A model generated the notes under the pieces. The model made no database searches. It was not told the origin of the DNA and saw only the letters and a program-made list of their open reading frames with translations. Below, in pieces: positions 43,997-64,000 of a stretch of DNA of 64,000 bases. The translations under genes and the position numbers were made by a program. The stretch spans positions 1-64,000 of the forward strand of contig NZ_BAFS01000472.1 in the NCBI RefSeq assembly GCF_000308415.1, in the 5' to 3' direction. The stretch comes from Nocardia asiatica NBRC 100129. Its GTDB lineage: Bacteria; Actinomycetota; Actinomycetes; Mycobacteriales; Mycobacteriaceae. Every line of letters starts with the position of its first letter. Positions within the stretch are counted from its first letter, which is position 1.

Positions 43997-44028
43997 CGGG
44001 CCGGGGGCGAATCCACGCCCCCGGCCCG
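43997..44028. terminator. Strong bidirectional hairpin terminator
   Basis: A perfect 13-bp GC stem, CGGGCCGGGGGCG at 43997-44009 with CGCCCCCGGCCCG at 44016-44028, has a six-base loop. It lies exactly between the stops of two convergent genes (43965 and 44033). There is no long T tract, as usual in actinomycetes. Confidence 0.8.
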
Positions 44029-44032
44029 TCTG

Positions 44033-45003: not shown

Positions 45004-45105
45004 TGAAATCCTTAGTCCTGTTAACAGTCGGACGTGATAGTACTGACTCGGCGCTCGGCACCGCACGAAAGACCGCTCATTCCGCGGCCCGGCAGCGGAT
45101 TTTCG

Positions 45106-47061: not shown

Positions 47062-47209
47062 CGTCGTCTCGGCCCCACCTTCGGCCGGGCATCCGCGCGA
47101 TTACCTGCTGGACCGCCTTCCCTCAGCGCTGCGAGCGATACGGGCGTGCGTGATGTGACGCTCTTCTAGCCCATCACCTTCGGGGCTGTGTCGGCAAGCC
47201 CCTGCGAAG

Positions 47210-47791: not shown

Positions 47792-47808
47792 GGCGGCATC
47801 CTATCTTG

Positions 47809-47855
47809 CCGAACCGTTTGGTTCGGATATACAGTTGCCGAACCAAACGGTTCTG
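47809..47855. promoter_or_regulatory. Two inverted TetR operators
   Basis: Site 1 at 47809-47826 is CCGAACCGTTTGGTTCGG. Site 2 at 47838-47855 is CCGAACCAAACGGTTCTG, the reverse complement of site 1 with one change. Arms CCGAACC and GGTTCGG flank a four-base core. The two sites are 29 bp apart centre to centre and flank an AT-rich TATA stretch that likely holds the promoters. Confidence 0.88.
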
Positions 47856-47881
47856 AAACTGCGGCGGGAACGAGGATGGAC

Positions 47882-48352
47882 ATGGGCTCTGCAGGGCGTG
47901 GCTGGCGGGATCTCGCCGAGCGGGAGGCCGGGGTGTCGGCGGCCGAGTTGGATGCGCTGTGGGCCGGCCTGCCGGTCGCGCATGCCGAGGACATCCTGGG
48001 TGAGTGGAAGGGGGCGGCGTTCCCGACCGGGCATCCGCTGCGCAAGGCGCTGTCGGTGAACCGCTGGTACGGCAAGACCTTCCACGGCCTGCTCGATGCG
48101 AAACCGTTGATCTGCCGGGCCGAGGACGGGTCGCTGTTCTCCAATGTCGAACTCGGCGGCGGTGGGGAAGCGACGTTGTGGAACGTCGAATTCCGCGGCG
48201 AGGTGACCGCCACCATGGTCTACGACCGCCGCCCGGTCCTCGACCACTTCAAATGGCTCGACGAGAACACGCTGATGGGCATCATGAACGGCCGTCCCGA
48301 CGTGGTGCTCGTCGATGGCGAGCACTTCTACTTCCTGCTCGAGCGGGTCTGA
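47882..48352 (+). CDS. GXWXG/DUF4334 domain protein
   Basis: A 156-residue protein with the GXWXG motif as GEWKG near residue 40 and a C-terminal DUF4334 domain (VSNVEL-like FSNVELGGGGEATL, VDGEHFYFLLERV). The family is often found near dehydrogenases and has no defined reaction. ATG at 47882 follows GAGG at six bases; ATG at 47876 would add two residues. It is followed after three bases by the ADH gene, so they are one operon under the TetR regulator. Confidence 0.85.
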   Translation: MGSAGRGWRDLAEREAGVSAAELDALWAGLPVAHAEDILGEWKGAAFPTGHPLRKALSVNRWYGKTFHGLLDAKPLICRAEDGSLFSNVELGGGGEATLWNVEFRGEVTATMVYDRRPVLDHFKWLDENTLMGIMNGRPDVVLVDGEHFYFLLERV

Positions 48353-48355
48353 GCG

Positions 48356-49447
48356 ATGCTGACCACCACCGCGGTGCTCTCCCGCGATCCCGCCGCGCCG
48401 TTCACCGTCGAAGCCGTCGAACTCGACGCACCCCGCGACGACGAGATCCTGGTGCGGGTGCTGGCCACCGGCATCTGCCACACCGACCTGGTCACCCGTG
48501 CGGCGGGCGGCGCCGACCATCCCGTGCTGCTCGGGCACGAAGGCGCCGGAGTGGTGGAGACCGTGGGCGCGGCGGTGACCGGCGTGCGGCCCGGCGATCG
48601 TGTCGTGCTGACCTTCCGGCATTGCCGAACGTGCCGGAACTGCCAGGCGGGACGTCCGGCGTATTGTGTGCGCGCGGTGGAACTCAACCAGTTCGGCGCC
48701 CGAGCGGACCGGACGCGCCGGGTCACCGTCGCGGGAACGCCGGTGCGGGACGGGTTCTTCGGCCAGTCCAGCTTCGCCGCGTACGCCCTGAGCACGGCCG
48801 ACAACACGGTAGTCGTCGACACCGAGGTCGACCCTACGGTGCTGGCTCCGCTGGGATGCGGGTTCCTGACCGGTGCGGGAGCGGTGCTGAATGTGCTGCG
48901 GCCGGACCGGGTTGCCCGGGTCGCCGTCTACGGCGCGGGCGCCGTCGGCATGGCCGGTGTGCTGGCGGCGCTGGCGTGCGAGGTCGCCGAACTCGTCGTG
49001 ATCGAGCCGTCCCCGTTCCGGCGGGCGTTGGCGCGGGACCTCGGCGCCACCGCGGTCCTCGATCCGGCGGCCGACGACGTCGTGCCCGCGGTTCGCGAGC
49101 TGACCGACGGCGGGGCCACCCACGCACTCGACACCACGGGATCGGCGAAAGTACTCGCCGCGGCGGCCGCCGGAGTCGCGATCGGCGGCACCGTGGTCGC
49201 GGTCGGTCTCGGCGCCGGAGTCCCGCAGATCGACCTGCGCGACATCGTGTTGGGCGGCAAGGTGATCCGCGGCTGTCTCGAAGGCGACGCGGTACCCGCT
49301 ACCTTCATCCCCCACCTGCTGGACTTGCACGCCGCCGGCCGCTTCCCGATCGATCGGCTCGTCACCACCTACCCGCACACCGACATCAACCTCGCGCTGG
49401 CACAGCAGCGTGCGGGCACGATCGTCAAACCTGTTCTGACTTGGTGA
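48356..49447 (+). CDS. Zinc-dependent alcohol dehydrogenase, aryl-alcohol type
   Basis: A 363-residue class III-like medium-chain ADH using NAD. Catalytic zinc ligands are Cys in TGICHTDL and His in GHEGAGVVE. Structural zinc is held by the four Cys in CRTCRNCQAGRPAYC. The cofactor motif is VAVYGAGAVGMAGVLAAL. The GCGFLTGAGAVLNVLRP segment and Ile-Lys-Pro end fit benzyl/aryl-alcohol dehydrogenases. Likely substrates are aromatic or terpenoid alcohols. It is co-transcribed with the DUF4334 gene. Confidence 0.93.
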   Translation: MLTTTAVLSRDPAAPFTVEAVELDAPRDDEILVRVLATGICHTDLVTRAAGGADHPVLLGHEGAGVVETVGAAVTGVRPGDRVVLTFRHCRTCRNCQAGRPAYCVRAVELNQFGARADRTRRVTVAGTPVRDGFFGQSSFAAYALSTADNTVVVDTEVDPTVLAPLGCGFLTGAGAVLNVLRPDRVARVAVYGAGAVGMAGVLAALACEVAELVVIEPSPFRRALARDLGATAVLDPAADDVVPAVRELTDGGATHALDTTGSAKVLAAAAAGVAIGGTVVAVGLGAGVPQIDLRDIVLGGKVIRGCLEGDAVPATFIPHLLDLHAAGRFPIDRLVTTYPHTDINLALAQQRAGTIVKPVLTW

Positions 49448-49571
49448 CCGCCCGGCCCGTCGGCAGCCGGGCGGGTTCGGACGGAGGGAGCACGGCGAGT
49501 CGCCGTTTCGCGGACTCCTGCCGAGCGGAAACCATTTGAGAGCCGAAGGCTCCGGTCCTTACCCTCAGCGT

Positions 49572-50144
49572 GTGAAGGGGTTCACCGGGCTGCTGAATGT
49601 GGTCGATGTCGAGGCGACGTGCTGGGAGGGGAAGGTTCCTGCGGGCGCGGTCAGCGAGATCATCGAGATCGGGCTGACCGTGGTCGACTTGGACGCGCGG
49701 GAGCGGATCGCCAAGCACCGCATCCTGGTTCGGCCGGTCCGGTCGGCAGTCGGCGAGTTCTGCACCGAACTGACCGGGCTCACGCAGGCCGAGGTCGACA
49801 CCGGCATGGAATTCGCCGACGCCTGTCGTCTGCTCGCGGCCGAGCACCGGGCGGGACTGCGGCCGTGGGCCAGCTGGGGCGACTACGATCGCAAACAGTT
49901 CGAACGGCAGTGTGCCGCCACCGGTGTCGAATATCCCTTCGAACACCGTCACACGAATGCCAAGCAGGTCTTCTCGGAGGCTTACGGATCGGCTCGCCGT
50001 CCGGGCATGGCCGAAGCGCTCCAGCTCGCCGGGCTGCCGCTGGAGGGCCGTCACCACTGCGGTGCGGACGACGCCTGGAATATAGCCGCTCTCGTCTTGG
50101 ACATCGTCGGCCGCAGCGCTTGGCGCACCACCACGGGAGCCTGA
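49572..50144 (+). CDS. DEDDh-type 3'-5' exonuclease (RNase T-like)
   Basis: A 190-residue nuclease of the ERI-1/KapD type. The first acidic motif is NVVDVEATCWEG, with EIIEIGLTVVD next. The second is SWGDYDRKQFERQC, and the third is HHCGADDAWNIAAL with the general-base His. It degrades RNA or DNA 3' ends in the cytosol. GTG at 49572 is chosen so that the first motif is close to the N-terminus; TTG at 49536 is an alternative. Neither has a good ribosome site. Confidence 0.87.
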   Translation: MKGFTGLLNVVDVEATCWEGKVPAGAVSEIIEIGLTVVDLDARERIAKHRILVRPVRSAVGEFCTELTGLTQAEVDTGMEFADACRLLAAEHRAGLRPWASWGDYDRKQFERQCAATGVEYPFEHRHTNAKQVFSEAYGSARRPGMAEALQLAGLPLEGRHHCGADDAWNIAALVLDIVGRSAWRTTTGA

Positions 50145-50292
50145 CGTGCCGGTGTCGCAGGAGGTGAGCCGTCGGCGGTCCTGGTCCGATCGGCGCTAGG
50201 CCGATTCCGCTGAACGCAGCCCACGAGCGGCACTGTTACGCACGACTCTCAGCGCTCGTGGACTCGGGCGGTGGGCGGCAGTGCCGGTTCGA

Positions 50293-50901
50293 TCACCGCA
50301 GGCGCCCTGCGATCGTGGTGGCGACGTCGATTGTCTCGGCGCACACGTCCCAGTCGACGCCCGAAGTTATCCCTGGGACGGCGATCCCCAAATAGAACGA
50401 TCCGCCAGAAGGCACCGACACGTGCACGTCGCAGCTGCCGTTACGGCCGTCCGGCCGGATAGTGGGCTCCAGTACGGCGCGCCGTCCGGCTACCGTGACG
50501 GTCCGCTCCAGCGGCCGGTGAATCTCGCGTTGTCCGAGATCGCTGAGGTCGACGTTATGGGGCGCGAATCCGATCGTGAAGCTGCCGGACGCTCCGGTTT
50601 GGATGGAAGACCACGAGCAGCGCGGCAGCTGCTTCGGGGGCGTGGACGCCTCGGCCTCGGGCTCGAGCACGAAGCGAGCGATATCGTCCGGCCCGAGCAC
50701 GCTGCACGGGTGATAAGTGAGTTCGGCCGGCGTCCACGGCTGCGGCGGCAGTGGTACGGCCGGCGACGTGGTGACGCTGCTCGGCGATGCCGTCTTCGGC
50801 GGCGTGTCGGCGGTCTCGCAACCGGCCACCGTCGCGGCGGCCACGACACTGCCGATTACCCCGGACAGCCAGCGGTGCCGATCTCGCACAGAATTCCCCA
50901 T
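50293..50901 (-). CDS. DUF3558 family lipoprotein
   Basis: A 202-residue envelope lipoprotein. The signal peptide ends with a lipobox VAGC (near residue 28), followed by a Pro/Ser/Thr-rich linker. The DUF3558 domain has the HPCSVLGPDDIARFVLEPEA start, CSWSS and the NGSCDVHVSV Cys. The family is found in mycobacteria and Nocardia and has no known function. ATG at 50901 has GGAGGA seven bases upstream. Confidence 0.88.
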   Translation of the reverse strand: MGNSVRDRHRWLSGVIGSVVAAATVAGCETADTPPKTASPSSVTTSPAVPLPPQPWTPAELTYHPCSVLGPDDIARFVLEPEAEASTPPKQLPRCSWSSIQTGASGSFTIGFAPHNVDLSDLGQREIHRPLERTVTVAGRRAVLEPTIRPDGRNGSCDVHVSVPSGGSFYLGIAVPGITSGVDWDVCAETIDVATTIAGRLR

Positions 50902-51104
50902 CGGCGCTCCTCCCTGCACCGATCACACCACAATCCCCGCGAATGTCGATAGTCACGGGATCCCGTGGGCCGGAATCCGGATATGCCGTCCCAGCCCGCG
51001 AAGGCGGAGCGACTTGCTGGTTTGTGCACTGCGAATGGGGATACCACGCGAAAGGGCCGGAGTGCGCGGGATGCGGCTCCCGAGACCGCGGAAAGGTGGC
51101 TGGC

Positions 51105-52526
51105 ATGGTGTCGAGCACGCTCGTCGCGCTTTCCCACGCGTCGGCGGAGGCGCCGCCCGGTCTGCTGCCCGCGCGCCAGCAGATGGCGTTCTCGCTGGGA
51201 TGGCACATCGTGCTGGCCTGTTTCGGGGTGGCGTTCCCCGCCATGATCTACGTCGTGCACCGCCGTGGCATCGTCCACGACGACCCCGTCGCCCTGGGGC
51301 TGGCCAAGCGGTGGGCGACGGTGTCGGCGATCCTGTTCGCCATCGGCGCGGTCTCCGGAACGGTTCTCAGTTTCGAGATGGGCCTGCTGTGGCCGGGACT
51401 CATGGGCCGCTACGGCGACGTGCTGGGCTTGCCGTTCGCCTTCGAAGGGCTTTCCTTCTTCATCGAAGCGATCTTCTTGGGCATCTACCTCTACGGATGG
51501 GGTCGCATGCCGCCGCGCCGGCATCTCGCGATGCTCGTGCCGATGGGCCTCGCGGGGGTGGTCGGCACGTTCTGCGTGATCAGCGTCAACGCGTGGATGA
51601 ACAATCCGACCGGCTTCCGGCTCGTCGACGGCGAGGTGACCGACGTCGATCCGTGGCGAGCGATGTTCAACGACGGCGTCTACCTGCAGTTCGCGCACAT
51701 GTGGGTCGGGGCGTTCATGCTCGTCGGATTCCTGGTGGCCGGTGTGTACGCGGCCGGTCTGCTGCGCGGCCGCCGGGACGACCACCACCGGCTGGGCTTC
51801 ACGGTCCCCTTCGTCTTCGCTACCGTCGCCGCGCTCGCGCAACCGCTCATCGGGCACGTTCTCGGCATGCGGGTGCACGATACGCAACCGTCCAAGTTGG
51901 CCGCGTTCGAACTGGCCACCACCACCGAGGGCCCGGCCCCGCTGCGGTTGGGCGGCGTGCTGGTGGACGGTGAGGTCCGCGGAGCGCTCGAGATCCCCCG
52001 CCTGGGTTCGGTCATCGCCCGCAACTCGCTGACCGCCCCTGTCCCCGGTCTGGACGCGGTCCCCGTCGAGGATCGGCCACCGGTCAACATCACCCACCTC
52101 GCGTTCCAGACCATGGTCGTGATCGGCACCCTGCTCGCGCTCCTGGTGCTGGTGTTCTGGTTGCTGCGCTGGCGGCGCCGCGACCTGCGGGACGAGCGCT
52201 GGTTCCTGTGGGCGGCGGTTGCCGCCGGTCCCTTGGCCGTGGTCGCGCTCGAGTGCGGCTGGATCGCCACCGAAGTGGGCCGCCAGCCGTGGACGGTGTG
52301 GCAGGTGCTGCGCACCACCGAGGCCGCCAGTACGAGCACCGGCCTGTGGTGGAGCTATGTCAGCGTGCTGCTGGTGTATGTCGGGATGACGGTGGGCGCC
52401 GTCGTCGTCCTGCGTTCCATGGCTCGCCGCTGGCGCGGCGGCGCCACCACCATCACCGCTCCCTATGGGCCCGGGGCGTCGCCGGTCGACCAGGCGCAGC
52501 GCGCCCGCAGCATCGGAGAGCCGTGA
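51105..52526 (+). CDS. cydA: Cytochrome bd ubiquinol oxidase subunit I
   Basis: A 473-residue membrane subunit with about nine membrane segments, holding haems b558, b595 and d. It has the haem-ligand GWHIVLACFG at residue 32-34, then GTVLSFEMGL, WPGLMGRYGDVLGLPFAFEG, the second His in FAHMWVGAF, a short Q loop and the EVGRQPWTVW motif. It reduces oxygen at low tension with quinol as donor and is a rescue oxidase in stress. cydB follows after two bases. ATG at 51105 follows AAGG. Confidence 0.95.
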   Translation: MVSSTLVALSHASAEAPPGLLPARQQMAFSLGWHIVLACFGVAFPAMIYVVHRRGIVHDDPVALGLAKRWATVSAILFAIGAVSGTVLSFEMGLLWPGLMGRYGDVLGLPFAFEGLSFFIEAIFLGIYLYGWGRMPPRRHLAMLVPMGLAGVVGTFCVISVNAWMNNPTGFRLVDGEVTDVDPWRAMFNDGVYLQFAHMWVGAFMLVGFLVAGVYAAGLLRGRRDDHHRLGFTVPFVFATVAALAQPLIGHVLGMRVHDTQPSKLAAFELATTTEGPAPLRLGGVLVDGEVRGALEIPRLGSVIARNSLTAPVPGLDAVPVEDRPPVNITHLAFQTMVVIGTLLALLVLVFWLLRWRRRDLRDERWFLWAAVAAGPLAVVALECGWIATEVGRQPWTVWQVLRTTEAASTSTGLWWSYVSVLLVYVGMTVGAVVVLRSMARRWRGGATTITAPYGPGASPVDQAQRARSIGEP

Positions 52527-52528
52527 CG

Positions 52529-53566
52529 ATGGATCTGTCGGACGTGGTCGCGACGGCGATGTTCCTCGGTGTGGTGGCGTACGCGCTGTTCGGTGGCGCG
52601 GACTTCGGCTCCGGATTCTGGGATCTCACCGCGGGCGGAGCCCGGCGCGGCAGCCGTCTGCGGGTGCTCATCGACCACAGCATCGGGCCGGTGTGGGAAG
52701 CCAATCACGTCTGGTTGATCTACATCCTGGTGTTCCTCTGGACTGCCTATCCGACGGTGTTCGCGGCCATCATGACCACCCTGTTCATCCCCATGAGCCT
52801 GGCCCTGCTCGGAATCGTGTTGCGCGGGGCGAATTTCGCCTTCCGCAAATACTCCGCGACGCTGGGCCAGGCGCGCCTGTTCGGCGCCTTGTTCGCCGGC
52901 GCGTCGCTCATCACGCCGTTCTTCTTCGGCACCGCCGTCGGGGCGATCGCCTCCGGCCGGGTGCCCGCCGAGGGGTACGGCGACGTGGTGACGTCGTGGC
53001 TCAATCCGACCTCCCTGCTGGGCGGCACGCTGGCCGTGGGAACGTCCGCCTTCCTGGCCGGGGTCTTCCTCACCGCCGACGCCGCGCGTTCGGGTGACCA
53101 CGCCCTCGCCGGCTATCTGCGCAACCGCACGCTCCTGGTCGGCGGTGTGACCGGGGCGGTCGCGATCGCGGCGATCGCGCCGATCCGGCGGGACGCGCCG
53201 ACCCTCGGCGCCGGACTGCTCGGGCGCGCGCTACCCCTGATCGCGCTCTCGGCCGCCGCGGGCGTGCTCACTCTCGTGCTGGTGTACCGCCGCCGCTTCG
53301 GGTGGGCGCGGGTGCCGGCGGCGGCCGCGGTCTCGGCGATCGTCGTCGGATGGGCGGTCGCGCAGACGCCGTGGATCCTCGTGGACGAGATGCTCATCGC
53401 CGATGCCGCAGGCGCCAGGGCGACACTGCTGGGACTGCTCGCTGTCGTGGCCGTCGCCGCCGTCACGGTGCTACCCGCCCTGGCTTATCTGTTCTGGCTC
53501 ACCCAGACCGACGCGTGGGTCCGCGACGAGCGGGTGCCCAGCGAGTCGCCGGAGCACGCGCAGTAG
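52529..53566 (+). CDS. cydB: Cytochrome bd ubiquinol oxidase subunit II
   Basis: A 345-residue, eight- to nine-helix membrane partner of CydA. Landmarks are YALFGGADFGSGFWDL, HSIGPVWEANHVWLIYILVF, WTAYPTVFAAIMTTL and WILVDEMLIADAA. It is translated directly after cydA. The cydDC transporter genes needed for assembly are not in the following 700 bases or anywhere else in the window. Confidence 0.94.
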   Translation: MDLSDVVATAMFLGVVAYALFGGADFGSGFWDLTAGGARRGSRLRVLIDHSIGPVWEANHVWLIYILVFLWTAYPTVFAAIMTTLFIPMSLALLGIVLRGANFAFRKYSATLGQARLFGALFAGASLITPFFFGTAVGAIASGRVPAEGYGDVVTSWLNPTSLLGGTLAVGTSAFLAGVFLTADAARSGDHALAGYLRNRTLLVGGVTGAVAIAAIAPIRRDAPTLGAGLLGRALPLIALSAAAGVLTLVLVYRRRFGWARVPAAAAVSAIVVGWAVAQTPWILVDEMLIADAAGARATLLGLLAVVAVAAVTVLPALAYLFWLTQTDAWVRDERVPSESPEHAQ

Positions 53567-53790
53567 CCGGCCGAGCGGCCCGCGTTCGTGCTCCCTATGT
53601 GCGGAATGGGTACCGATAGATCGGTTTGTTTACGGTCGCGCGTGGTATCCGCTGCACGTATCGGCTCGACAGCGCGGTCGTGCCGGTACCCATGGGGCCC
53701 CCTCACTGCTCGAACGATGTCGCGAATGCTCGCGCCGTGCGAGGGCGAGGTGCCTGTTGTCAAGGATGGACGGCGCAGAGGAATTGCATC

Positions 53791-53934
53791 GTGATCGAGA
53801 ACGCGAACATGCCCATCACCGACGAGGAAGACCGGGACCGGATCATCTGGCCCGAGTCCAGCAAGATGAGCGCCTGGTGGGCGGACGTGATGGGGCATCG
53901 GTTCCCGCGAACCCAGACCACGCCATCGAGTTGA
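53791..53934 (+). CDS. Possible 47-residue small protein
   Basis: A GTG-start frame follows AGAGGA and encodes an acidic N-terminal half (PITDEEDRDRIIWPESSKMS), then AWWADVMGHRFPRTQ. Codon use is plausible, but no family is recognised and neighbours give no support. It could be the N-terminal remnant of a longer gene. Confidence 0.3.
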   Translation: MIENANMPITDEEDRDRIIWPESSKMSAWWADVMGHRFPRTQTTPSS

Positions 53935-54102
53935 TTCCGCCCTCCGGCACGCGGGTGCGCTGCCCGGCCTCTGCGTGATACGGATGCACGCCGGACTGCC
54001 AGGGTGGTGCCGTACTCCCGCTCGCTGGGCTCGACACGCACGGCCTGAATCGCGGCGCTGCGGTACACGGAGCGTGTGTCGAGGCCGCCTGTGTGCGGTG
54101 CT

Positions 54103-54369
54103 CTACGCGCCCGAGCCTTCCGGCTGCGGTGGCCGGCGCAGTGCGAGGAGTTTGTCGATGATCTCGATCGCCGTCAGCGGAGGCGGTGCGGCGCCCGCCG
54201 CGGCGTCGGTGCGGATCCGGGCGGCCAGGCCCGCGGGGCAGCGGTCGCCCGGCCGCGCGGTGGTGGCGCATGCCGTACAGCCCTCGACAGCATCGGCGAG
54301 ATGGGCTTCGACATTGCGCACATCGAGCGCGGCGATCAAATCCAGCCCGCTCAAGAAGTTGATCGGCAT
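54103..54369 (-). CDS. Small Cys-containing protein of unknown function
   Basis: An 88-residue frame starts MPINFLSGLDLIAALDV, followed by CTACATTARPGDRC (a CxxC plus a third Cys) and a C-terminal helix AIEIIDKLLALRRPP. No signal peptide is seen. The Cys pattern could bind a metal. AGAGGA lies 11 bases upstream of the start, which is long. The frame has normal codon use for this GC content but no family is recognised. Confidence 0.5.
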   Translation of the reverse strand: MPINFLSGLDLIAALDVRNVEAHLADAVEGCTACATTARPGDRCPAGLAARIRTDAAAGAAPPPLTAIEIIDKLLALRRPPQPEGSGA

Positions 54370-54829
54370 GTCGATGGGTTCCTCTGGTTCAATATCCGAT
54401 CGGGTCGGCGGTCGCCCAGGATTGTTCCAGCCTTCCCCGCACCGCGCAGTCCGACACGGCCGGATATCGGACGGCTTTCCGGTGACGAGGTAGCCACCGG
54501 GTTCGCACGCAGTTCACGAGACGGGCTGGAACACTTGTCCGGCGGGTGCGGCCCCGATTGCGTGGCCGACGACTTTGTCGGCCTTCCGACGTCATTGTCG
54601 GGGCGGATATCCGGTGACAGCGTTGTCGTTCGGACGTAGGGCTCACCCGTTTATATAGGCTCCGCATCGGTAATGTAACAGATGGATATACCTTCTGGGA
54701 ACCCCTAGCGAATTGCGGGGTGATTGCGCTTGTCCCAGGTCGCCCGTGCTTGTCGCGCGCGTTGCCGGGAGCAGGCAAAGACTCAGCGAAGATCGCGCCA
54801 CGGCCTCCGGTGCCGGAGGCAGCGATCGC
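54370..54829. other. Intergenic region of 460 bases
   Basis: This lies between the small Cys protein start and the IclR gene stop. It has an AT-rich island near 54650-54690 (TTTATATAGG, ATGGATATACC) that could be a promoter or a trace of transferred DNA. Open frames here lack motifs and ribosome sites. No repeat or hairpin was identified. Confidence 0.4.
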
Positions 54830-55618
54830 TCAGCCGCCGGGCGTGGTCGACAGCCGGGCCCGACGGGTGAGGGTGAGCCCTATTCCGTCGGCAGCCGCGC
54901 GGACGGATGCCGCGTGGGCCTCGGGACGAAACCGGTGAGACGGGCCCGCCACGCTGATCGCCGCCACCACCTGGTCCGCCTCGCTGACCGGGGCGGCCAC
55001 GCAGACGAGACCGGGAGCGGACTCTTCGAATTCGAACGCCACGCCCTCGGCCGCGATGCGATCGAGCTGGTTGCGCAGCGTGCCCGGCAGGACCATCGTG
55101 CGCGGAGTGTGGCGACGGAGCGGTCCGGCCAGTATCCGGTCACGGAGCGCGGCGTCGGCATTGGCCAGCAGCACTTTGCCGATGGCTGTGCAATGCACCG
55201 GCATGCGGCCGCCGATCCGGGACGGGGCGCTCGCCTGCCTGCGTCCGCCGATCTTCGTCAGGTACACGACATCCGTTCCATCGAGAACGCCGAGATGCAC
55301 GGTCTCGTGGATCCGCGCGTTCAACTCCTCCAGGAACGGAATGGCCACCTCGAGCAAACTCCGCTCGACCGACGCGCGCATTCCCAGTTCGAACAGGTGC
55401 CCCCCGAGCCGATACCCGGCTTCGGTCCGGTCCAGCAGCCGCACCGCCACCATGTCGCCGAGGACCCGGTGCAAGGTTCCCTTCGGTATTCGGGTCCGCC
55501 GCCCCAGTTCGGCCAGGCTGAGTGCGGTGTCGTCGATCGCGAACGCCTCGAGCACCGCCATGACCTTCCCCAGCACGGTCGAACCGTCTACCGCCCGACC
55601 GGCGAACGCAGATGACAC
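54830..55618 (-). CDS. IclR family regulator divergent from hsaEGF
   Basis: A 262-residue IclR protein. The winged helix reads SLAELGRRTRIPKGTLHRVL. The effector domain has GGRMPVHCTAIGKVLLAN and the FEFEESAPGLVCVAAPVSE region, as in regulators of aromatic or sugar-acid catabolism. GTG at 55618 follows GGAGG at five bases; a TTG at 55630 overlaps that site. It lies 141 bases from hsaE, transcribed away, and likely controls it via the palindrome at 55663-55679. Confidence 0.92.
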   Translation of the reverse strand: MSSAFAGRAVDGSTVLGKVMAVLEAFAIDDTALSLAELGRRTRIPKGTLHRVLGDMVAVRLLDRTEAGYRLGGHLFELGMRASVERSLLEVAIPFLEELNARIHETVHLGVLDGTDVVYLTKIGGRRQASAPSRIGGRMPVHCTAIGKVLLANADAALRDRILAGPLRRHTPRTMVLPGTLRNQLDRIAAEGVAFEFEESAPGLVCVAAPVSEADQVVAAISVAGPSHRFRPEAHAASVRAAADGIGLTLTRRARLSTTPGG

Positions 55619-55662
55619 CTCGACCTCCAACCTTGCCGGTGGACCCCACCCTACCGAGCAGT

Positions 55663-55679
55663 GTTCGACTCAGTGGAAC
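55663..55679. promoter_or_regulatory. 17-bp IclR-type operator between IclR and hsaE
   Basis: GTTCGACTCAGTGGAAC is symmetric in seven of eight base pairs around a central C, with outer arms GTTC and GAAC and inner ACT/AGT. IclR-family regulators such as PcaU/PobR bind GTTC-type palindromes. It sits 45 bases from the IclR start and 80 bases from hsaE. Confidence 0.7.
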
Positions 55680-55758
55680 GCAATGCTGGCGGGCCCGTCC
55701 TACCTGCGGCGACAGTGAGACACTGCCTGACCCCTCCACAAGGATTCCGAGACTTCCC

Positions 55759-56580
55759 ATGCCGATTCCTTCCAGCCTCGACCGAGGCTCCGTGACCGCG
55801 GACGCCACCACGATCGCCGCCGCCCGGCTCGGCGCCGCCGCCCGCACCCGCATTCCGTGCGCCCCGGTGCGCGACCTGATCGGAGCCGACGACGTTGCCG
55901 CGGCATATGCGGTGCAGGAGCGGCTGACCGTCGAGCGCATCGCGGACGGAGCCGAAGTGGTCGGACGCAAGATCGGCTTGACTTCCCCGGCGGTGCAGCG
56001 CCAGCTGGGCGTCGACCAACCGGATTTCGGAGTGTTGTTCGACGATATGCGGTACCGGCAGGACACGCCCGTCCCGCTGAGCAGGCTGCTGCAACCGAAG
56101 GTGGAAGCCGAGATCGCGTTCGTGCTCGCCCAGGATCTGGCCGACGGCCCGCTGGACGAGCGGCAAGTGCGCGGCGCGGTCGATTACGCCGTGGCCGCGC
56201 TGGAGATCGTCGACAGCCGCATCGCGGGCTGGGACATCACCTTCGGTGACACCGTCGCCGACAACGCCTCCAGCGGTCTGTTCGTGCTGGGCGCCGAACA
56301 TCGCACGCTCGATTCCTTCGACCCGGTCTCGGCGCGGATGCGCATGTCGATCGACGGTGTCGAAGTGTCGACGGGAAGCGGCGCCGCCTGCCTCGGCGAT
56401 CCGCTGCACGCCTTGGCCTGGCTGGCACGGACCACGCGAGAGTTCGGCAGGCCGCTGCGCGCCGGTCAGATCGTTCTCTCCGGGGCGCTCGGGCCGATGG
56501 CCCCGATCGAGGGCCCCGCCACCGTCACCGCCGACATCACCGGACTCGGCTCGGTGACCGCGCCCTTCATCCAGGAGTGA
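55759..56580 (+). CDS. hsaE: 2-hydroxypenta-2,4-dienoate hydratase, HsaE-like
   Basis: A 273-residue MhpD/HsaE-family hydratase that turns 2-hydroxy-alkadienoate into 4-hydroxy-2-oxoalkanoate after meta-cleavage. Family segments are [42 protein letters not shown] (metal ligands), ALEIVDSRI and [19 protein letters not shown] at 55759 is used; the nearest purine run is far upstream. It is first in hsaE-hsaG-hsaF. In steroid breakdown it acts on 2-hydroxyhexa-2,4-dienoate released from ring A. Confidence 0.92.
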
Positions 56581-56584
56581 GACC

Positions 56585-57565
56585 ATGAACGACAACCCCG
56601 CCAAGCTCGAAGTCGCGGTGATCGGGTCGGGCAATATCGGTACCGATCTGATGATCAAAGTGATCCGGCACTCGACGGTGTTGGAGATGGGCGCGATGGT
56701 CGGCATCGACCCGGCATCCGACGGCCTCGCCCGCGCCCGCCGGTTCGGTGTCCCGACCACCGCCGACGGCGTCCAAGGCCTGCTGGAGCTGCCGAACTTC
56801 GGCGAGATCGGCGTGGTCTTCGACGCGACTTCCGCCAAGGCGCACGCCGCCCACGCCGCGGTGCTCGGACCGCTCGGCAAACGCCTGATCGATCTGACAC
56901 CGGCCGCGCTGGGCCCGTTCGTCGTACCGGCGGTGAACCTCGAGGAACACCGCCACGCCCCGAACGTCAACATGGTCACCTGCGGCGGGCAAGCGACGAT
57001 CCCGATCGTCGCGGCCGTCTCCCGGGTCGCCCCGGTGCCCTACGCCGAGATCGTCGCGTCCATCGCGTCGAAATCCGCGGGCCCCGGTACCCGCGCGAAC
57101 ATCGATGAATTCACCGAGACCACCGCGCACGCGATCGAAACGGTCGGCGGCGCCCGCCGCGGCAAGGCCGTCATCATCCTCAATCCGGCGGACCCGCCGC
57201 TGATCATGCGGGACACGGTGCTGTGCCTGGTCACCGCACCGGACCCGGCCACACAGCTGGCGATCCGGGAATCGGTCGAGCGAATGGTCGCGCAGGTGGC
57301 CGCCTACGTGCCCGGCTACCGGCTCAAGCAACAGGTTCAGATCACCGCCGTGCCGCGGGACCAACCCGTGCGCACCCTGCTCCGCGCGGACGCGGTGGAC
57401 GCGCCGACCCATCAGGTGTCGGTGTTCCTCGAGGTCGAAGGCGCCGCGCACTACCTGCCGGCATACGCGGGCAACCTCGACATCATGACCTCGGCCGCGC
57501 TGCGCTACGCCGAATCCATCGCAGGCACGATCGCCGCACCGGCAGAACAGGGAGCGCTCCGATGA
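56585..57565 (+). CDS. hsaG: Acetaldehyde/propionaldehyde dehydrogenase (acylating), HsaG-like
   Basis: A 326-residue CoA-acylating aldehyde dehydrogenase. The NAD motif is [14 protein letters not shown] (residues 10-23), and the active-site Cys is in [14 protein letters not shown] near residue 130. [17 protein letters not shown] and [11 protein letters not shown] complete the family pattern. It converts acetaldehyde or propanal from HsaF, by channelling, to acetyl- or propionyl-CoA. It starts four bases after hsaE and overlaps hsaF. Confidence 0.95.
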
Positions 57566-58620
57566 CCACCCGGCTGTTCATCCAAGACGTCACGCTTCGC
57601 GACGGCATGCACGCGGTGCGCCACCGCATCACTCCCCACGACGTCGGCCGGATCGTGGCGGCGCTCGACGCCGCGGGGGTCGACGGCATCGAGGTCGCCC
57701 ACGGCGACGGCCTCGCCGGAGGCAGCTTGAACTACGGCCCCGGAAGCAATACCGACTGGGAATGGATCGAAGCCGCTGCCGCGAATCTCACCCACGCCCG
57801 GCTGACCACGCTGCTGCTGCCCGGCATCGGCACCATCAAAGAACTGGAGCAGGCCTACCGGCTCGGCGTCCGGTCGGTCCGGGTGGCCACCCACTGCACC
57901 GAAGCCGACGTGTCCGCTCAGCACATCGCCACCGCACGGGAACTCGGCATGGACGTCTCCGGATTCCTGATGATGTCGCACCTGGCCGAACCGGACCGCC
58001 TGGCCGGACAAGCGAAGCTGATGGAATCGTATGGGGCGCAATGCGTCTACGTCACCGATTCCGGCGGACGGCTGACCATGGACGGTATCCGCGACCGGGT
58101 CCGCGCCTACCGCCGGGTGCTCGATCCGGCCACCGAGATCGGCATCCACGCGCACGAGAACCTGTCGCTCTCGGTGGCCAATTCCGTGGTCGCGGTGGAA
58201 GAAGGCGTCACCCGGGTCGACGCCTCGCTCGCGGGGCACGGCGCCGGAGCGGGCAACTGCCCGATCGAACCGTTCGTCGCGGTCGCCGACCTGTACGGCT
58301 GGAAGCACAACTGCGACCTGTTCGCCTTGCAGGACGCCGCCGACGATCTGGTGCGGCCGTTGCAGGACCGCCCGGTGCGCGTGGACCGCGAGACCCTCAC
58401 ACTCGGATATGCCGGGGTGTACTCGTCATTTCTGCGGCACGCCGAAACGGCGTCGCGGCGCTACGGCATCGATGTGCGCACGATCCTGCTCGAAGTGGGG
58501 CGCCGCGGCCTGGTCGGCGGTCAAGAAGACCTCATCATCGATATCGCCCTGGACCTGCTCGCCGACTCCAGCGGGACGGCTGCCGGGGATATGCCTCCGC
58601 AGGGACTGTCGATCAGCTGA
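57562..58620 (+). CDS. hsaF: 4-hydroxy-2-oxovalerate aldolase, HsaF-like
   Basis: A 352-residue class II aldolase with DREAM-type TIM barrel and C-terminal communication domain. The metal/catalytic start is [15 protein letters not shown], then [24 protein letters not shown] and the HxH metal motif [15 protein letters not shown]. The segment [19 protein letters not shown] is diagnostic. The start ATG overlaps the hsaG stop as ATGA, in line with the stable aldolase-dehydrogenase complex these enzymes form. Confidence 0.95.
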
Positions 58621-58760
58621 GCCAAGAATCGCTGGGCCACCCGAATGCTCCGAGTCGGTCCGCCGCATCGGCGAGCCGTTCTCGAACAGGGAGCGGCCGA
58701 GCGGATCCGTCATCCGCCCGGCCGTGTCGAACACCTCGATTCGGTTCTCCGGAATATCGA

Positions 58761-59312
58761 TCAGAACGGCGTGAAGAAGAAGCCGAACCACGCGCCTACC
58801 GCAGCGCCGACCGCACAACCGATGACGGCGCCGACGATGAAGAACCAGATGCCGATGGCGATACCGATCGCGCAACCGATCGCCGCACCGATCAAGGCGC
58901 CACCGAACAGGGCGTCGTGCATCAGACCCTGCAGCTCAGGTGCGACCGCGGCGGGTGACGGCACGCCGGCCGCCGGAGTCAGCGTCAGTGTCCTGCCCGA
59001 CTGATCGAGCGAGGGTGTGACGCTGAAATTCTGTCCGGTCTCCATTCGCAGCGTCGTCGGGATCGCACCGACGATCGCGCCGTCGTCAGCGAGCACGTTG
59101 ACGCCGGCCGGTGTCACCTCGAACCGGCCGGAATCCAGATCGACCGTCGCGGTGCGGTGATCCGAAGCCAGGGTCGTCGTGTAGGAGATAGGCCCATCCA
59201 CCCCGTTGAGCGTGAGGTCTGCCAGGGTGCCCTCACCGTGTGCTGTGGCCGTTGCTATGCCTGTCGTCGCTATGGCGAACAGGGCGGTTGCCACCAATTT
59301 CTTGATAAACAT
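58761..59312 (-). CDS. Exported protein with C-terminal glycine-zipper membrane hairpin
   Basis: A 183-residue protein with a signal peptide (MFIKKLVATALFAIATTGIA, cleavage near TATAHG). A beta-rich middle of about 100 residues (GPISYTTTLASDHRTATVD) follows. The C-terminus is a Gly/Ala-rich pair of hydrophobic segments (ALIGAAIGCAIGIAIG and FIVGAVIGCAVGAAVGAW) ending FGFFFTPF. This plan is common in Nocardia envelope proteins of unknown function. ATG at 59312 is used; ATG at 59327 would add five residues. Confidence 0.8.
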   Translation of the reverse strand: MFIKKLVATALFAIATTGIATATAHGEGTLADLTLNGVDGPISYTTTLASDHRTATVDLDSGRFEVTPAGVNVLADDGAIVGAIPTTLRMETGQNFSVTPSLDQSGRTLTLTPAAGVPSPAAVAPELQGLMHDALFGGALIGAAIGCAIGIAIGIWFFIVGAVIGCAVGAAVGAWFGFFFTPF

Positions 59313-59549
59313 TGGAAGTCCAATCATCGGACGATGTTGTTGGAATTCCCCCGGGCGGGCGACGTTGACCGTCAAACCTGATCCTGCCCCCCACCAGGTG
59401 CAATGTCGATAGGTATCCCGTATGGGTAATTTTCGTAATTTGGGTCGGAATTTAGCTCCTGCCCACATTCCGGTTCTCGGTCCGGCAGGAATTGCAGGAG
59501 AGTGCGAGCCCGGCCGCGCCCGGTGCACCGTCGTGGACAGGTTCTCCGG

Positions 59550-60185
59550 CCGTGGGCACGGCGACGCCGAGTTCGTTCTCGACGCGCCCGTCGCCGACCG
59601 GCTGCTGTTGCCCGCTCTGGATCCGGACGGCGACACCGTGATCGTGGCGCCGGGGCCTGATGCGGGGACAGACGTCACCCCGCAGCCGCTGGTCGACGCG
59701 ACGCGTGATCTAGGACGGGTGCGCGCCGAGGGCGTCGAGGCGGCAGAGGCGGCGGTGTGGCGATTCCGTGGCGACGGTGCCGCCGCCGTGCGACGGCTCT
59801 ACGATCGGGCCGCGCTGGCGACGGACTGCGACAGTCTCGGGCTGAGCGCGGCGATGCTGACGGCCACCGTCGGCTACCCCGGGGTGCGCGAGCAGTTCGG
59901 CCGCCCGATCGGGTCCTTCCAGGCCTTCGAACGCGCGTGCGCGGACATGCTGGTGCAGATCTCGGTGGCCCGGCGACTGGTGGCGGACGCCGTGCGGGCC
60001 GAGGTCGCGTCCGCACCGGACGCCGGGGACGCGGCCGCGATGGCCAAAGCGTTCGCCACCGAGATGGCGGTGCGGGTGGCGGGGAAGGCCATGTAGCTGC
60101 ACGGCATCGGGTTACACCTGGGAGAGCGGGATCCACGCGTACCTCGAGCGCGCCACACTCGATCGGTCCCTCTTCGGCGCTCCTG
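59550..60185 (+). pseudogene. Acyl-CoA dehydrogenase, truncated and disrupted
   Basis: The frame encodes the middle and C-terminal part of an FadE: DAEFVLDAPVADRLLLPALD, TPQPLVDATRDLG and YPGVREQFGRPIGSFQ. At KAM the Gln expected in KAMQLHG is a TAG stop at 60094-60096. The homology resumes as LHGIG and then shifts frame to YTWESGIHAYLERATLDRSL. The N-terminal substrate-binding half is missing: upstream sequence back to 59422 lacks similarity. It is therefore a 5'-deleted, nonsense- and frameshift-bearing remnant, probably of a CoA-ester catabolic gene. Confidence 0.85.
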
Positions 60186-60284
60186 CCCGGCACCGGCAAC
60201 GACGGGCCCGGCGATACGCCTCGGCGCGGCCAGCGCAGGGGGGCATCGCCGGGCAGCCACTCGTAGGCGCGCCGGAGAACCGGA

Positions 60285-60764
60285 TCAGTCCCCCGGCGCC
60301 TCGGTGAAGCGCTGGAGGTACAGCGGCTCGCCCAATGTCTCCAACAGATCGAGTTCGGTCTCCAGATAGTCGACGTGCTGCTCTTCGTCTTCGAGGATGT
60401 GCTCGAAGATGCGAGCCGAAGTCACGTCCCCGCGCGAACGCATCAACTCGATGCCCCGGCGGAGCCGTTCGACCGCTTCCAACTCGATTTGCAGATCGGC
60501 CCGCAGTTGCTCGGGCACGCTCTGCCCGATGCGCAGCGGGTTGAGCTTCTGGTAGTTGGGCAGCCCCTCGAGGAACAGGATCCGGTCGGTGAGGAGCTCG
60601 GCATGTTTCATCTCATCGATGGACTCGTGCCGAGTGTGCCGCGCCAGCTTGGTAAAGCCCCAGTTCTCCTGCATCTTGGCGTGCAGGAAGTACTGGTTGA
60701 TCGCCGTGAGTTCGGCCGTCAGTTGCTCGTTGAGCAACGCCACGATGTCCTTGTCGCCGTCCAT
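60285..60764 (-). CDS. bfr: Bacterioferritin
   Basis: A 159-residue haem-containing ferritin subunit that stores iron in 24-mer cages. The ferroxidase ligands are in LTAELTAINQYFLH (Glu18), ESIDEMKHAE (Glu51, His54), IELEAVERL (Glu94) and EDEEQHVDYLE (Glu127, His130). Met52 in EMKHAE is the haem axial ligand that separates Bfr from plain ferritin. It follows bfd by 58 bases on the same strand and is likely under the tandem iron boxes upstream of bfd. Confidence 0.96.
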   Translation of the reverse strand: MDGDKDIVALLNEQLTAELTAINQYFLHAKMQENWGFTKLARHTRHESIDEMKHAELLTDRILFLEGLPNYQKLNPLRIGQSVPEQLRADLQIELEAVERLRRGIELMRSRGDVTSARIFEHILEDEEQHVDYLETELDLLETLGEPLYLQRFTEAPGD

Positions 60765-60822
60765 AGCAGCGATCGTGGCACAGAATGTGCGCAGCGCGGG
60801 AGAGACCGCCTGGCGTGTCGGA

Positions 60823-61014
60823 TCAGGCGGCCGAGGGCTGTGCCCCGGTCGTCGCGCGGGCGCGGCCGATCACCTCGGCCAATCGCGCCGTACAACTGCC
60901 GCAGCCGGGCTTCCAGCCGCAGGCGTTCTTCACTTGGCGGACACTGTCGGCCCCGGCCGCGACGCAGGTGTGCACGTCCCCTTCGGACAGCGCGTTACAG
61001 ATGCACACGTACAT
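60823..61014 (-). CDS. bfd: Bacterioferritin-associated ferredoxin
   Basis: A 63-residue 2Fe-2S protein. The cluster ligands are the CIC near the start (MYVCICNAL, Cys4 and Cys6) and GWKPGCGSC near residues 38-41, the BFD-domain spacing. It reduces bacterioferritin to release stored iron. Two IdeR-like boxes sit 25-62 bases before its start, so iron level is likely to set expression. The length fits the family. Confidence 0.93.
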   Translation of the reverse strand: MYVCICNALSEGDVHTCVAAGADSVRQVKNACGWKPGCGSCTARLAEVIGRARATTGAQPSAA

Positions 61015-61038
61015 GAAGCCTCACAGTCACCGTTTCAC

Positions 61039-61076
61039 TGAGGTTAGCCTCGACTAACGAGGTAAGCCTCCCCTAA
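61039..61076 (-). promoter_or_regulatory. Two tandem IdeR-like iron boxes upstream of bfd-bfr
   Basis: Two adjacent 19-bp boxes are seen. Read on the minus strand, box 1 (61039-61057) is TTAGTCGAGGCTAACCTCA and box 2 (61058-61076) is TTAGGGGAGGCTTACCTCG. They match the IdeR consensus TTAGGTTAGGCTAACCTAA at about 15 and 14 of 19 positions. In mycobacteria, paired boxes in front of bfrA mediate positive control by iron-loaded IdeR. The same logic may apply here, but sign of control is inferred. Confidence 0.8.
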
Positions 61077-61162
61077 TGTATAGCAGGTCGATCCCTCCGT
61101 GGGAACCCCGGCGCGCCGCCCGGTGCGACAGCTGTTGTCGCGGCCCGCGAACGGCCGTGGAG

Positions 61163-61650
61163 CTAGGCCCCTGCCAGCCGTTTCGCGGCAAGCTGCCGCA
61201 GTTCACGGGACATGATCTTGGCGCTGCCGGTGAGCGTGATGTCCCGCTCGGCGAACAACAGCACGTGCCGGGGAACCTTGTAAGCTGGCCAGCCGCTCGC
61301 GCAGGAACGCGCGGATCCTGCGGCGTCCACCGTCGCGCCCGTGTGGGGCACCACGCACGCCACCACGACCGTGTTCCCGGCAGCGGCCGGCCGCTGCTGC
61401 CCGCGATCTCGTCCTCGGGTGTGCCGGAGGGGAAGCATGTGGTGATTGTGAAGATCTCGGTGTTGGCGTAGGCGTGGCCCGGCTCGGTCCAGGTGGTCGA
61501 CACGCGAGGGTGGCGCGCCGCGGGCGTCTTCACGTCCACGAAGCGCAGGCCGCTCAGGTCCGTGGTGGCCCAGGTGGGCGCGCCTTCCAGCTGAGCCCAC
61601 TGATGCGATGAATACCGGCGAGGGTGCGTGCGGCAACCGGCCGCCGCGGG
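61163..61650 (-). pseudogene. Acyl-CoA synthetase (AMP-binding) remnant
   Basis: On the minus strand the homology starts near 61650 as WAQLEGAPTWATTDLSGLRF and runs to TITTCFPSGTPEDEIAG and RPLPG. It then shifts frame and joins ACVVPHTGATVDAAG directly, skipping about 100 residues of the normal domain. A +1/-1 pair of compensating shifts follows around RIRAFLRERLAS, then YKVPRHVLLFAERDITLTG and SAKIMSRELRQLAAKRLAGA to the stop. The N-terminal ATP-binding part is absent. At least three indels and an internal deletion make it non-functional. Confidence 0.83.
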
Positions 61651-61767
61651 CATCCAGATCGTCCTCGCCGGGCAGCGGACGTAACCCGTTGCCACTACAG
61701 CGGATTCGCCCGCTCGTCGGTGTGCGGGCTGCCGGAGAGGGTGGCGCGGCGGATCGGCATGGACCGC

Positions 61768-62220
61768 TCAGGCGAGATACCGGACCAGGTGCTCGGCGAC
61801 GCAGGCCGGCTTGTCCGCGCCCTCGGCGATGATCGTCACGGTGCGTTCGGCTTGGACCCCGCCGGGCACATCGGTGACGGCGGTGAGCGTGACGGTGCCG
61901 CGCACCCGGCTGCCGACCCGGACCGGGCTGATGAAGCGGACCTTGTTCAGCCCGTAGTTGATCGCCATCCGGGCCGACGTCACCGACATCACCTGCTGGC
62001 TGATGGGGGCGAGCAGGGCGAGGGTGAGGAATCCGTGCGCGATGGTGGCGCCGTACGGGCCGCCTGCGGCGCGCTCGGCGTCGACGTGGATCCACTGCCG
62101 ATCGCCGGTCGCCTCCGCGAACAGGTCGATGCGCCGCTGGTCGATCTCGATCCACTCGCCGGGGCCCAGCACGGTGCCCACGGCGGCGCGCAGCGCGTCG
62201 AAATCTTGGAAGTCGGTCAT
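61768..62220 (-). CDS. MaoC family (R)-specific enoyl-CoA hydratase
   Basis: A 150-residue single hot-dog domain hydratase. The catalytic pattern is the FAEATGDRQWIHVDAERA segment (Asp and His) and the HGFLTLALLAPI helix, then INYGLNKVRFISPVRVGS. It hydrates trans-2-enoyl-CoA in fatty-acid or side-chain degradation. ATG at 62220 (MTDFQDF) is used; ATG at 62226 is two codons upstream. It is the only intact gene among four broken ones here, transcribed with the fadD remnant upstream (50 bases away). Confidence 0.9.
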   Translation of the reverse strand: MTDFQDFDALRAAVGTVLGPGEWIEIDQRRIDLFAEATGDRQWIHVDAERAAGGPYGATIAHGFLTLALLAPISQQVMSVTSARMAINYGLNKVRFISPVRVGSRVRGTVTLTAVTDVPGGVQAERTVTIIAEGADKPACVAEHLVRYLA

Positions 62221-62269
62221 GCGCATCCTTTCTGCGGTCGCGCCTGCACGATATCCGGCGCCCGACGCT

Positions 62270-63438
62270 CTACCGCAGGTGGACCTTCATCACCTTGCCG
62301 GTCGCGTTGAGCGGCAGCGTGCGCAGAAACGCACCGAGCGGGGGACTTTGTAGCCCGCCATCCGCTCGCGGCTCCATGCGATCAGCTCCGCTTCGGTGAC
62401 CGGGTCCTTGGTCACCACGAAGGCCCGGCCGACCTGCCCGAGCCGTTCGTCCGGCACACCGATGACGGCGGCCCGCGCGACCGCGGGGTGTTCCAGCAGA
62501 AACCCCTCTATCTCGGCGGGATAGGCGTTGAACCCGCCGACGATGAACATGTCCTGCTTGCGTCCGACGATGCGCAACCTGCCCTCGGGATCGAGGATGC
62601 CCAGGTCGCCGGTGTGCAGCCAGCCCTCCGGGTCGATCGCCTCGGCCGTCGCCCGCGGGTCGTCCAGGTAGCCCTGCATCACGCTGTAACCGCGGACCAG
62701 CACTTCACCGTCCTCCGCGATGCGGACCTCGACACCGTCGCAGGATTTCCCCACGGTCGCCGCGATCTGCTCGAAGGTGTCCCCGGGCCGGGACGCGGTG
62801 GCGGTGCCCGCCTCGGTCAATCCGTATCCGGTCATGATCGAGCGGAACGGAAGTTCTTCACGCATCCGGCGGATGAGTTCCACCGGGATGTCGGCCGCCC
62901 CGGTGACCGCGGCTCGCAGCGAGGACAGATCGTGCGTACCGGCGGCCTCCACCAGCGAGTGGTAGAGCGTCGGCGGGCCGGGTAGCATCGTCATCCGTTC
63001 CCGCGCCACCAGTTCCAGCACGCGATCGACGTCGAAGACGGGGACCGGAGGGATCGTGGCGCCACGGATGAGCGAGGCCACGAGACCGGCTTTGTAGCCG
63101 AAGGTATGGAAGGACGGGTTGACGATCAGATAACGGTCGCCTTCCCGCAGATCCGCCAGATCGCACCACTCCGCGTAGAGCCGCAGCGTCTGCGCGTGAT
63201 TCATCATCACGCCCTTGGAACGCCCGGTGGTGCCGGAGGTGTAGATGACGTCGGCGATGTCGGTACTCGCGACGCTCCGCTCGAACGGCGCGCCACTGTC
63301 CAGGAAATCGGATTTCAGATCGATCACGGGCACATCGGTGGCGCCGGTGTAGTCGACGCCGAGGAAACCCTGCTGGACGAGCACGGCCTTGGCGCCGCTG
63401 CGGCGGATGACGTCGCCCGCCTCGTCGGCCTTGAAGCG
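62270..63438 (-). pseudogene. FadD-like acyl-CoA synthetase, 5'-deleted and 3'-frameshifted
   Basis: About 380 residues of an AMP-forming ligase remain. They begin at RFKADEAGDVIRRSGAKAV and include the P-loop YTSGTTGRSKGV, YGLTEAGTA, GWLHTGDLG and GRKQDMFIVGGFN. The usual first 110 or so residues are missing, with homology ending abruptly at 63438. Near 62335 a one-base indel moves the end out of frame. In the next frame it would read FLRTLPLNATGKVMKVHLR to TAG at 62270, with the catalytic Lys in GKV. It resembles FadD3 (ligase for the steroid-derived propionate HIP), but this assignment is moderate. Confidence 0.82.
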
Positions 63439-63956
63439 CCCGCGATGACCGCGCACCGCACCGGCGTATTCGGCGAGGCGGTGCGGCTGGTCGGTGACGC
63501 GCTCGGCGTCGAGTTCGACGAGGTGTGCTGCGTCGCCGAATATGCCCGGACACGGCCGATCTCGACCTCGGATCGTGGACTATCCCGGCGGGATGCGTCG
63601 CGGGCGTCCACGCGAGCTGGAAGGGCCGGATCGGGGACCGGACCGCTGTGGAGATCAAGGTCCGCTGGCGCAAAGGCCAGGCGCTCGAGCCCGACTGGAA
63701 GATCGATCAGGACGGCTGGGTCTTGCGCGTCGACGGCCGCCCCACGGTACGCAACGTCGTCAGCTTCTTGCCGCCACCGGATTTCCGAGCGGAGACGATC
63801 GCCGACATCATGACCCTCGGGCACATCATGACCGCGATGCCGGTCATCAACGCCATCCCCGTCGTCGTGGCCTGCGCCGAACCTGTCGGATGCCGGACGC
63901 TCGCTACGCGGACCGAGCAGTCGCGTCGGACAAGCGAGGAGTTGGATCGACTGTGA
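63439..63956 (+). pseudogene. DapB-like NAD(P)-dependent oxidoreductase, C-terminal part, frameshifted
   Basis: Homology starts at about 63445 (AHRTGVFGEAVRLVGDALGV). It runs to CVAEYA near 63545, then a frameshift moves it to TADLDLGSWTIPAGCVAGVH. RWRKGQALEPDWKIDQDGW, RPTVRNVVSFLPPPDF and MTLGHIMTAMPVINAIPVVV follow. This is the C-terminal domain of the dihydrodipicolinate-reductase-like family seen in actinobacterial catabolic clusters. The NAD-binding N-terminal half (about 190 residues) is absent. The last 25 residues diverge from the family and may reflect another shift. Confidence 0.8.
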
Positions 63957-64000
63957 CGACCGGGAATCCGACACGGGGTAGCGCGAATCGCCGCCACGAC
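63953..64000 (+). CDS. Possible start of a downstream gene, cut by the window end
   Basis: A GTG at 63953 overlaps the TGA of the DapB-like frame (GTGA) and opens VTTGNPTRGSANRRHD to the window edge. The overlap is typical of coupled genes, but 16 residues are too few to assign a family and no ribosome site was checked beyond the remnant. Confidence 0.3.
   Translation, partial: MTTGNPTRGSANRRHD

Follow-up and report, generated by a model that had tools for sequence, protein, structure and literature searches.

The chromosome of Nocardia asiatica strain NBRC 100129, a member of the Nocardia abscessus group, has very probably lost ∼20 to 21 kb of DNA in a single event whose limits are codon 86 of a fadD gene and approximately codon 186 of a divergently oriented dapB-like gene and which, judged by N. 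exalbida, took an mce locus with it. The analyzed window consists of bases 1 to 64000 of a 68,596-base contig, so that window and contig coordinates coincide and contig bases above 64000 lie outside the window but on the same contig. The assembly is a draft of 8.46 Mb in 475 contigs, with a completeness score of 100%. It was compared primarily with four close relatives, N. exalbida strain NBRC 100660 (G007), N. gamkensis strain NBRC 108242 (G133), and N. abscessus strains NBRC 100374 (G100) and BJ06-0146 (G096).

The process is ordinary genome erosion, and the deletion is not named in the literature listings surveyed on Nocardia mce loci, gene loss, N. abscessus comparative genomics, pseudogenes, and genome reduction. 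Its outcome is an N. abscessus-group strain that apparently lacks an mce lipid import locus kept by its close relatives, which makes it a natural comparison for the function of that locus and a small data point on the loss of catabolic clusters in high-GC actinobacteria. The coordinates of the junction and of the neighboring features are listed in Table 1.

Table 1. Remnants, intact genes, and deletion junctions around the fadD-dapB join
Feature	Position	Strand	Basis
Small deletion junction, 317 bp missing relative to three relatives, ∼325 bp relative to the fourth	61367..61374	.	
Junction of a larger second deletion (36.6 kb absent compared with N. abscessus BJ06-0146)	61607..61624	.	
MaoC-like dehydratase gene, intact, beside the FadD remnant	61768..62226	-	Pfam PF01575; dN/dS
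FadD3-family acyl-CoA ligase remnant	62290..63438	-	Pfam; NCBIfam on the N. exalbida orthologue; residue mapping
Deletion junction	63438..63439	.	Ungapped comparison with the parental sequences on either side in four relatives
DapB/2,4-diaminopentanoate dehydrogenase-like remnant	63438..63878	+	blastn against four relatives; Pfam of the N. gamkensis orthologue; three-frame translation
Further deletion region, ∼2.1 kb missing relative to N. abscessus BJ06-0146	63872..64000, on to 64068	.	
Fifth deletion, ∼490 bp missing relative to N. abscessus BJ06-0146	contig bases 64117-64130, beyond the window		

Two Truncated Genes Meet at a Single Junction

The homology on the FadD side ends at position 63438 in the comparison with the N. 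abscessus strains and at 63439 in that with N. exalbida and N. gamkensis, and the homology on the DapB side starts at 63438 in all four, the parental sequences overlapping at the junction by 1 to 2 bases (G or GC). The initial annotation had put the two limits at about 63438 and 63439 to 63445, with both genes losing their 5′ parts at the same point and the junction mapped to within ∼10 bases; the alignments to the four relatives agree with all this and narrow the junction to one or two bases.

A 301-base query spanning the junction was searched against 150 Nocardia genomes, including that of the strain itself. Its left half matched the four relatives with 90 to 92% identity (E values of 3e-51 to 2e-54) and its right half with 81 to 87% identity (8e-34 to 9e-46); the two halves match separate places at these E values, which is not attributable to chance. 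Matches to the query at an E value of 1e-30 or better were seen in 16 of the 149 other genomes, in four of which both halves were matched, again at separate places. The join itself was absent from all 149 (the longest reach past the junction was 24 bases, in G159), so the evidence for it comes from one draft assembly. Matches in a few distant genomes ran ∼15 to 25 bases past the junction, on the FadD side in G105, G113, G123, and G010, on the DapB side in G040, and with the junction query in G159. Identity in these stretches (18 of 25 bases in G010, 13 of 19 in G105, and 14 of the 22 before the junction in G040) is lower than on the true side, and we take them to be probable alignment overruns.

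The FadD remnant lies in an open reading frame (ORF) at positions 62290 to 63456 of the minus strand that contains AMP-binding and AMP-binding_C domains but joins the AMP-binding profile only at position 79 of 384. Its N. exalbida orthologue scores above the NCBIfam cutoff for the FadD3-family model. According to residue mapping, the first 86 of 475 residues are gone, and comparison by eye with N. exalbida revealed a frame change at the extreme C terminus. The dapB-like gene has lost its 5′ half at the junction, contains an internal frame change, and has lost its 3′ end at ∼63872 to 63878. The protein lost ∼186 of ∼354 residues if translation starts at the GTG before SNTPAYK, which is the likely start, or 209 of 377 if counted from the first ATG. 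An earlier estimate of 190 missing residues thus roughly holds for DapB, and that of 110 was too high for FadD. The window ORF at 63525 to 63956 matched no Pfam family on its own; the orthologue in N. gamkensis, where the gene is full length, contains PF19328 (2,4-diaminopentanoate dehydrogenase, C-terminal) and PF01113 (DapB_N) but scores under the NCBIfam cutoffs of both named enzymes, so that “DapB-like” here denotes family resemblance only. Sequencing errors could account for the internal frame change of dapB and for that at the end of FadD.

Arrangement of the Flanks in Close Relatives

Both flanks of the junction are found on one contig in each of the four relatives, in the same order and orientation as in the window, separated by 20,748 bases in N. 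exalbida, 20,329 in N. gamkensis, and 21,544 and 20,790 in N. abscessus strains NBRC 100374 and BJ06-0146, respectively. This collinearity gives good support to the single deletion, truncating both genes, that had been proposed from the window alone. The search for the flanks covered 40 relatives and 118 Nocardia genomes (own included), with the best 3 candidates per genome scored in the latter. By hand count of these candidates, 27 genomes besides the strain's own had matches on the FadD side (E value of 5.5e-244 or better) and the DapB side; the match to FadD in G106, one of the 27, ends before reaching the junction, and DapB-side matches with 72 to 76% identity may represent paralogues. The two flanks share a contig in seven of the 27, namely the four relatives and G040, G066, and G126. 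In contig coordinates, they are ∼118 kb apart in G040 and megabases apart in G066 and G126, an arrangement unlike that of the window, and the intact arrangement is therefore known from the closest group only. In none of these seven genomes are fadD and dapB adjacent.

Each gene has its own upstream neighbor in N. exalbida. An amidohydrolase ORF that ends at L032:1612 overlaps by 4 bases, on the same strand, the fadD gene that starts at L032:1609, and the dapB-like gene is preceded by a same-strand gene for a DUF427 protein. With a same-strand gene directly upstream of each, there is no promoter common to fadD and dapB.

Content of the Lost Interval

The content of the interval was examined in N. 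exalbida, where it falls mostly on locus L031, with the fadD end on L032. From the dapB side, it encodes a DUF427 protein, an acyl-CoA thioesterase, an SDR, a P450, and an ORF without a Pfam match, followed by six MlaD/Mce-domain ORFs, an MlaE permease, a TetR regulator, and another ORF without a match, and, at the fadD end, a second AMP-binding ligase and the amidohydrolase; these ORFs were selected by length and codon-position GC with overlaps kept, which makes this a list of domains rather than an annotation. The signature of an mce locus is there, with PF02405 found once and PF02470 in six neighboring ORFs; TIGR00996 scored above its NCBIfam cutoff in three of the four Mce ORFs scanned (of six) and below it in the fourth. 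Judged by N. exalbida, the lost DNA would have carried an mce locus and accessory enzymes. Like the mce loci of Nocardia and Mycobacterium, the interval combines six MlaD/Mce ORFs and an MlaE permease with lipid metabolism genes; it differs in that its copy is missing from the strain studied here and its role is a predicted one.

Among the best 40 of 880 candidate matches, a search of the 20-kb L031 against the strain's own genome yielded paralogue-like matches only. Those to the mce part had 66 to 68% identity over 0.7 to 1.9 kb (contigs C180, C216, and C206), and one on contig C47 had 73% over 0.5 kb. Further matches extended over ∼430 bases or less, mostly with 65 to 81% identity, a few of them tens of bases long and reaching 93%; identity above 73% was seen only over ∼280 bases or less, compared with 83 to 90% in the orthologous flanks. 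The same search recovered the window's own dapB flank (80% identity). The 1.9-kb piece at the fadD end likewise gave only short matches (best 40 of 478 candidates). The similarity of the mce part to other contigs suggests that other mce loci remain in the genome.

Collinear Deletions Nearby

The fadD-dapB junction appears to be one of about five collinear deletions. Six blocks of the contig match contig C33 of N. abscessus strain BJ06-0146, all in ascending order: 59556-61370 (C33 positions 200675-202514), 61367-61607 (202832-203073), 61624-63438 (239708-241551), 63438-63872 (262342-262777), 64068-64129 (264914-264976), and 64130-68596 (265466 onward). The pieces missing between them are ∼0.3, 36.6, 20.8, 2.1, and 0.5 kb long and sum to ∼60 kb, which means that 4.6 kb of the contig (59556 to 64200) represents ∼65 kb of strain BJ06-0146.

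At the smallest of these gaps, 4 bases (61367 to 61370) belong to both matches in three relatives, and no such overlap is seen in N. abscessus NBRC 100374. Read by eye, the remnant at 61155 to 61607, with its internal loss of ∼317 to 325 bp, resembles the C terminus of another acyl-CoA ligase. At the largest gap, 16 bases separate the two matches, and in contig coordinates ∼30.6 kb is missing relative to N. gamkensis and 35.3 kb relative to N. abscessus NBRC 100374. The 36.6-kb interval, searched as two 19-kb stretches, had matches of only 65 to 71% identity (E value of 1e-20 or better) in the strain's own genome, the positive control being the window's own flank at 84%. Between 63872 and 64068 lie ∼195 bases without a good match. 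The ∼490-bp loss falls within what may be the remnant of a luciferase-like oxidoreductase gene on the minus strand (contig bases 63904-64572, or L029:3904-4572).

Age of the Loss

For the FadD remnant (364 codons), dN/dS values for the window against each of the four relatives are 0.118 to 0.134, compared with 0.093 to 0.121 in the four pairs of intact genes between the exalbida/gamkensis and abscessus groups and with 0.078 and 0.142 in the two within-group pairs (the latter value being that of the N. abscessus pair). The dapB remnant (∼100 codons) has no excess, with 0.067 to 0.112 against 0.063 to 0.112 between groups. Of the two intact control genes, maoC gave 0.150 to 0.208 for the window against 0.135 to 0.195, and ferritin gave 0.045 to 0.066 against 0.008 to 0.026, a larger relative excess than that of FadD. 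Any sign of decay in the FadD remnant is thus slight. The divergence mostly accumulated under constraint, and these ratios weakly suggest that the loss is recent.

Mechanism of the Deletion

Within 150 bases either side of the breakpoints, the longest direct common word is 7 to 9 bases, a length equalled or exceeded in 62 to 99% of the 178 to 193 random pairs examined per genome, and the longest inverted common word (9 to 10 bases) is no longer than in random pairs (178 to 193 per genome). With a 1- to 2-bp overlap and no repeat beyond chance, a repeat-mediated deletion, whether homologous or slipped-strand, was rejected. Direct repeats are reported to have driven precise deletions in Mycobacterium smegmatis (PMC3519483). 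Those deletions resemble the present one in that the DNA between two points of an actinobacterial chromosome was lost; unlike them, the Nocardia junction has no direct repeat longer than expected by chance.

The genome encodes Ku (PF02735) and the N-terminal domain of LigD (PF13298). Repeat-free breakpoints, a 1- to 2-base overlap, and these two domains are shared with actinobacterial deletions that arise by illegitimate recombination or non-homologous end joining, although the Nocardia case is known from its scar alone and the repair route is inferred. Given the ∼70% GC base composition, an overlap of at least 1 base is estimated to occur by chance about half the time, so that the overlap does not single out end joining: together with Ku and LigD, it fits this route but is not specific to it. 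The scar itself does not distinguish end joining from replication slippage or template switching, and we favor the joining of a double-strand break over these two by a modest margin of belief. The loss would have started from a double-strand break or from an error in replication, with Ku/LigD-type end joining as the likeliest route by which the 1- to 2-bp overlap was rejoined. It would be recent, the presence of further mce loci would explain why it was tolerated, and it would form part of a run of losses eroding ∼60 kb of a catabolic region.

Alternative Explanations

An assembly artefact that lined up short contigs correctly but closed the gaps between them would create false collinear joins. 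The draft state of the source and the presence of several joins within 4.6 kb, ordered as in the relatives, are what such an artefact would leave, but sequenced DNA that had been misplaced should turn up on other contigs, and among the matches scored there was no orthologue-level copy of either the 20.7-kb or the 36.6-kb interval in an assembly scored as complete. The remnants, moreover, have frame changes while the neighboring ferritin and MaoC genes are intact, and we regard an artefact as improbable. An insertion of 20 kb in the relatives, with the window representing the older state, is far less probable still. Distant Nocardia do not have the 20-kb spacing of the two genes, but the copies in the window lack their N-terminal parts, whereas full-length FadD orthologues (residues 1 to 475 matched) occur across Nocardia and in other genera and the DapB-like gene of N. 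gamkensis is complete, which identifies the truncated state as the derived one.

The initial annotation had envisaged the single deletion as a loss of ∼1 kb that removed a divergent promoter shared by the two genes, as could be surmised from divergent genes with 5′ ends truncated at one point. A deletion of that size is scarcely credible: the genes lie 20.3 to 21.5 kb apart in the four relatives, each has its own same-strand upstream gene in N. exalbida, and the adjacent intact fadD-dapB pair that was to serve for alignment is the arrangement seen in none of the seven genomes mentioned above. Non-adjacency of the two genes in an ancestor had been named as grounds for rejecting the proposal as a whole; it disposes of the promoter, while the deletion itself stands. 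A single loss of ∼20 to 21 kb is thus the reading that we retain.

Departure from Collinearity at 59.5 kb

The stretch from 59556 to 64200 could tentatively be viewed as a deletion hotspot, in which a single lineage lost ∼60 kb of a lipid catabolism and mce region through five or more separate joins, although we lean against this view. If true, serial erosion would be proceeding rapidly here, and a duplication or translocation breakpoint may have started it. The stretch adjoins a departure in gene order, the part that matches positions 504 to 518 kb of the N. abscessus contig lying just before the part that matches 200 to 270 kb. Positions 44002-58575 match C33:504126-518088 of strain BJ06-0146 piecewise, and 58682-59453 match C2:251233-252007 in reverse. 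Because matches to the left of 59556 fall elsewhere, the boundary at 59.5 kb is a rearrangement rather than a plain deletion. The gene order breakpoint at 58575 to 59556 holds a 0.8-kb segment between two blocks that a single N. abscessus contig carries ∼300 kb apart and in the opposite order. The acyl-CoA dehydrogenase ORF at 59422 to 60096 contains only the C-terminal domain according to Pfam, and its homology begins at 59556, the rearrangement boundary.
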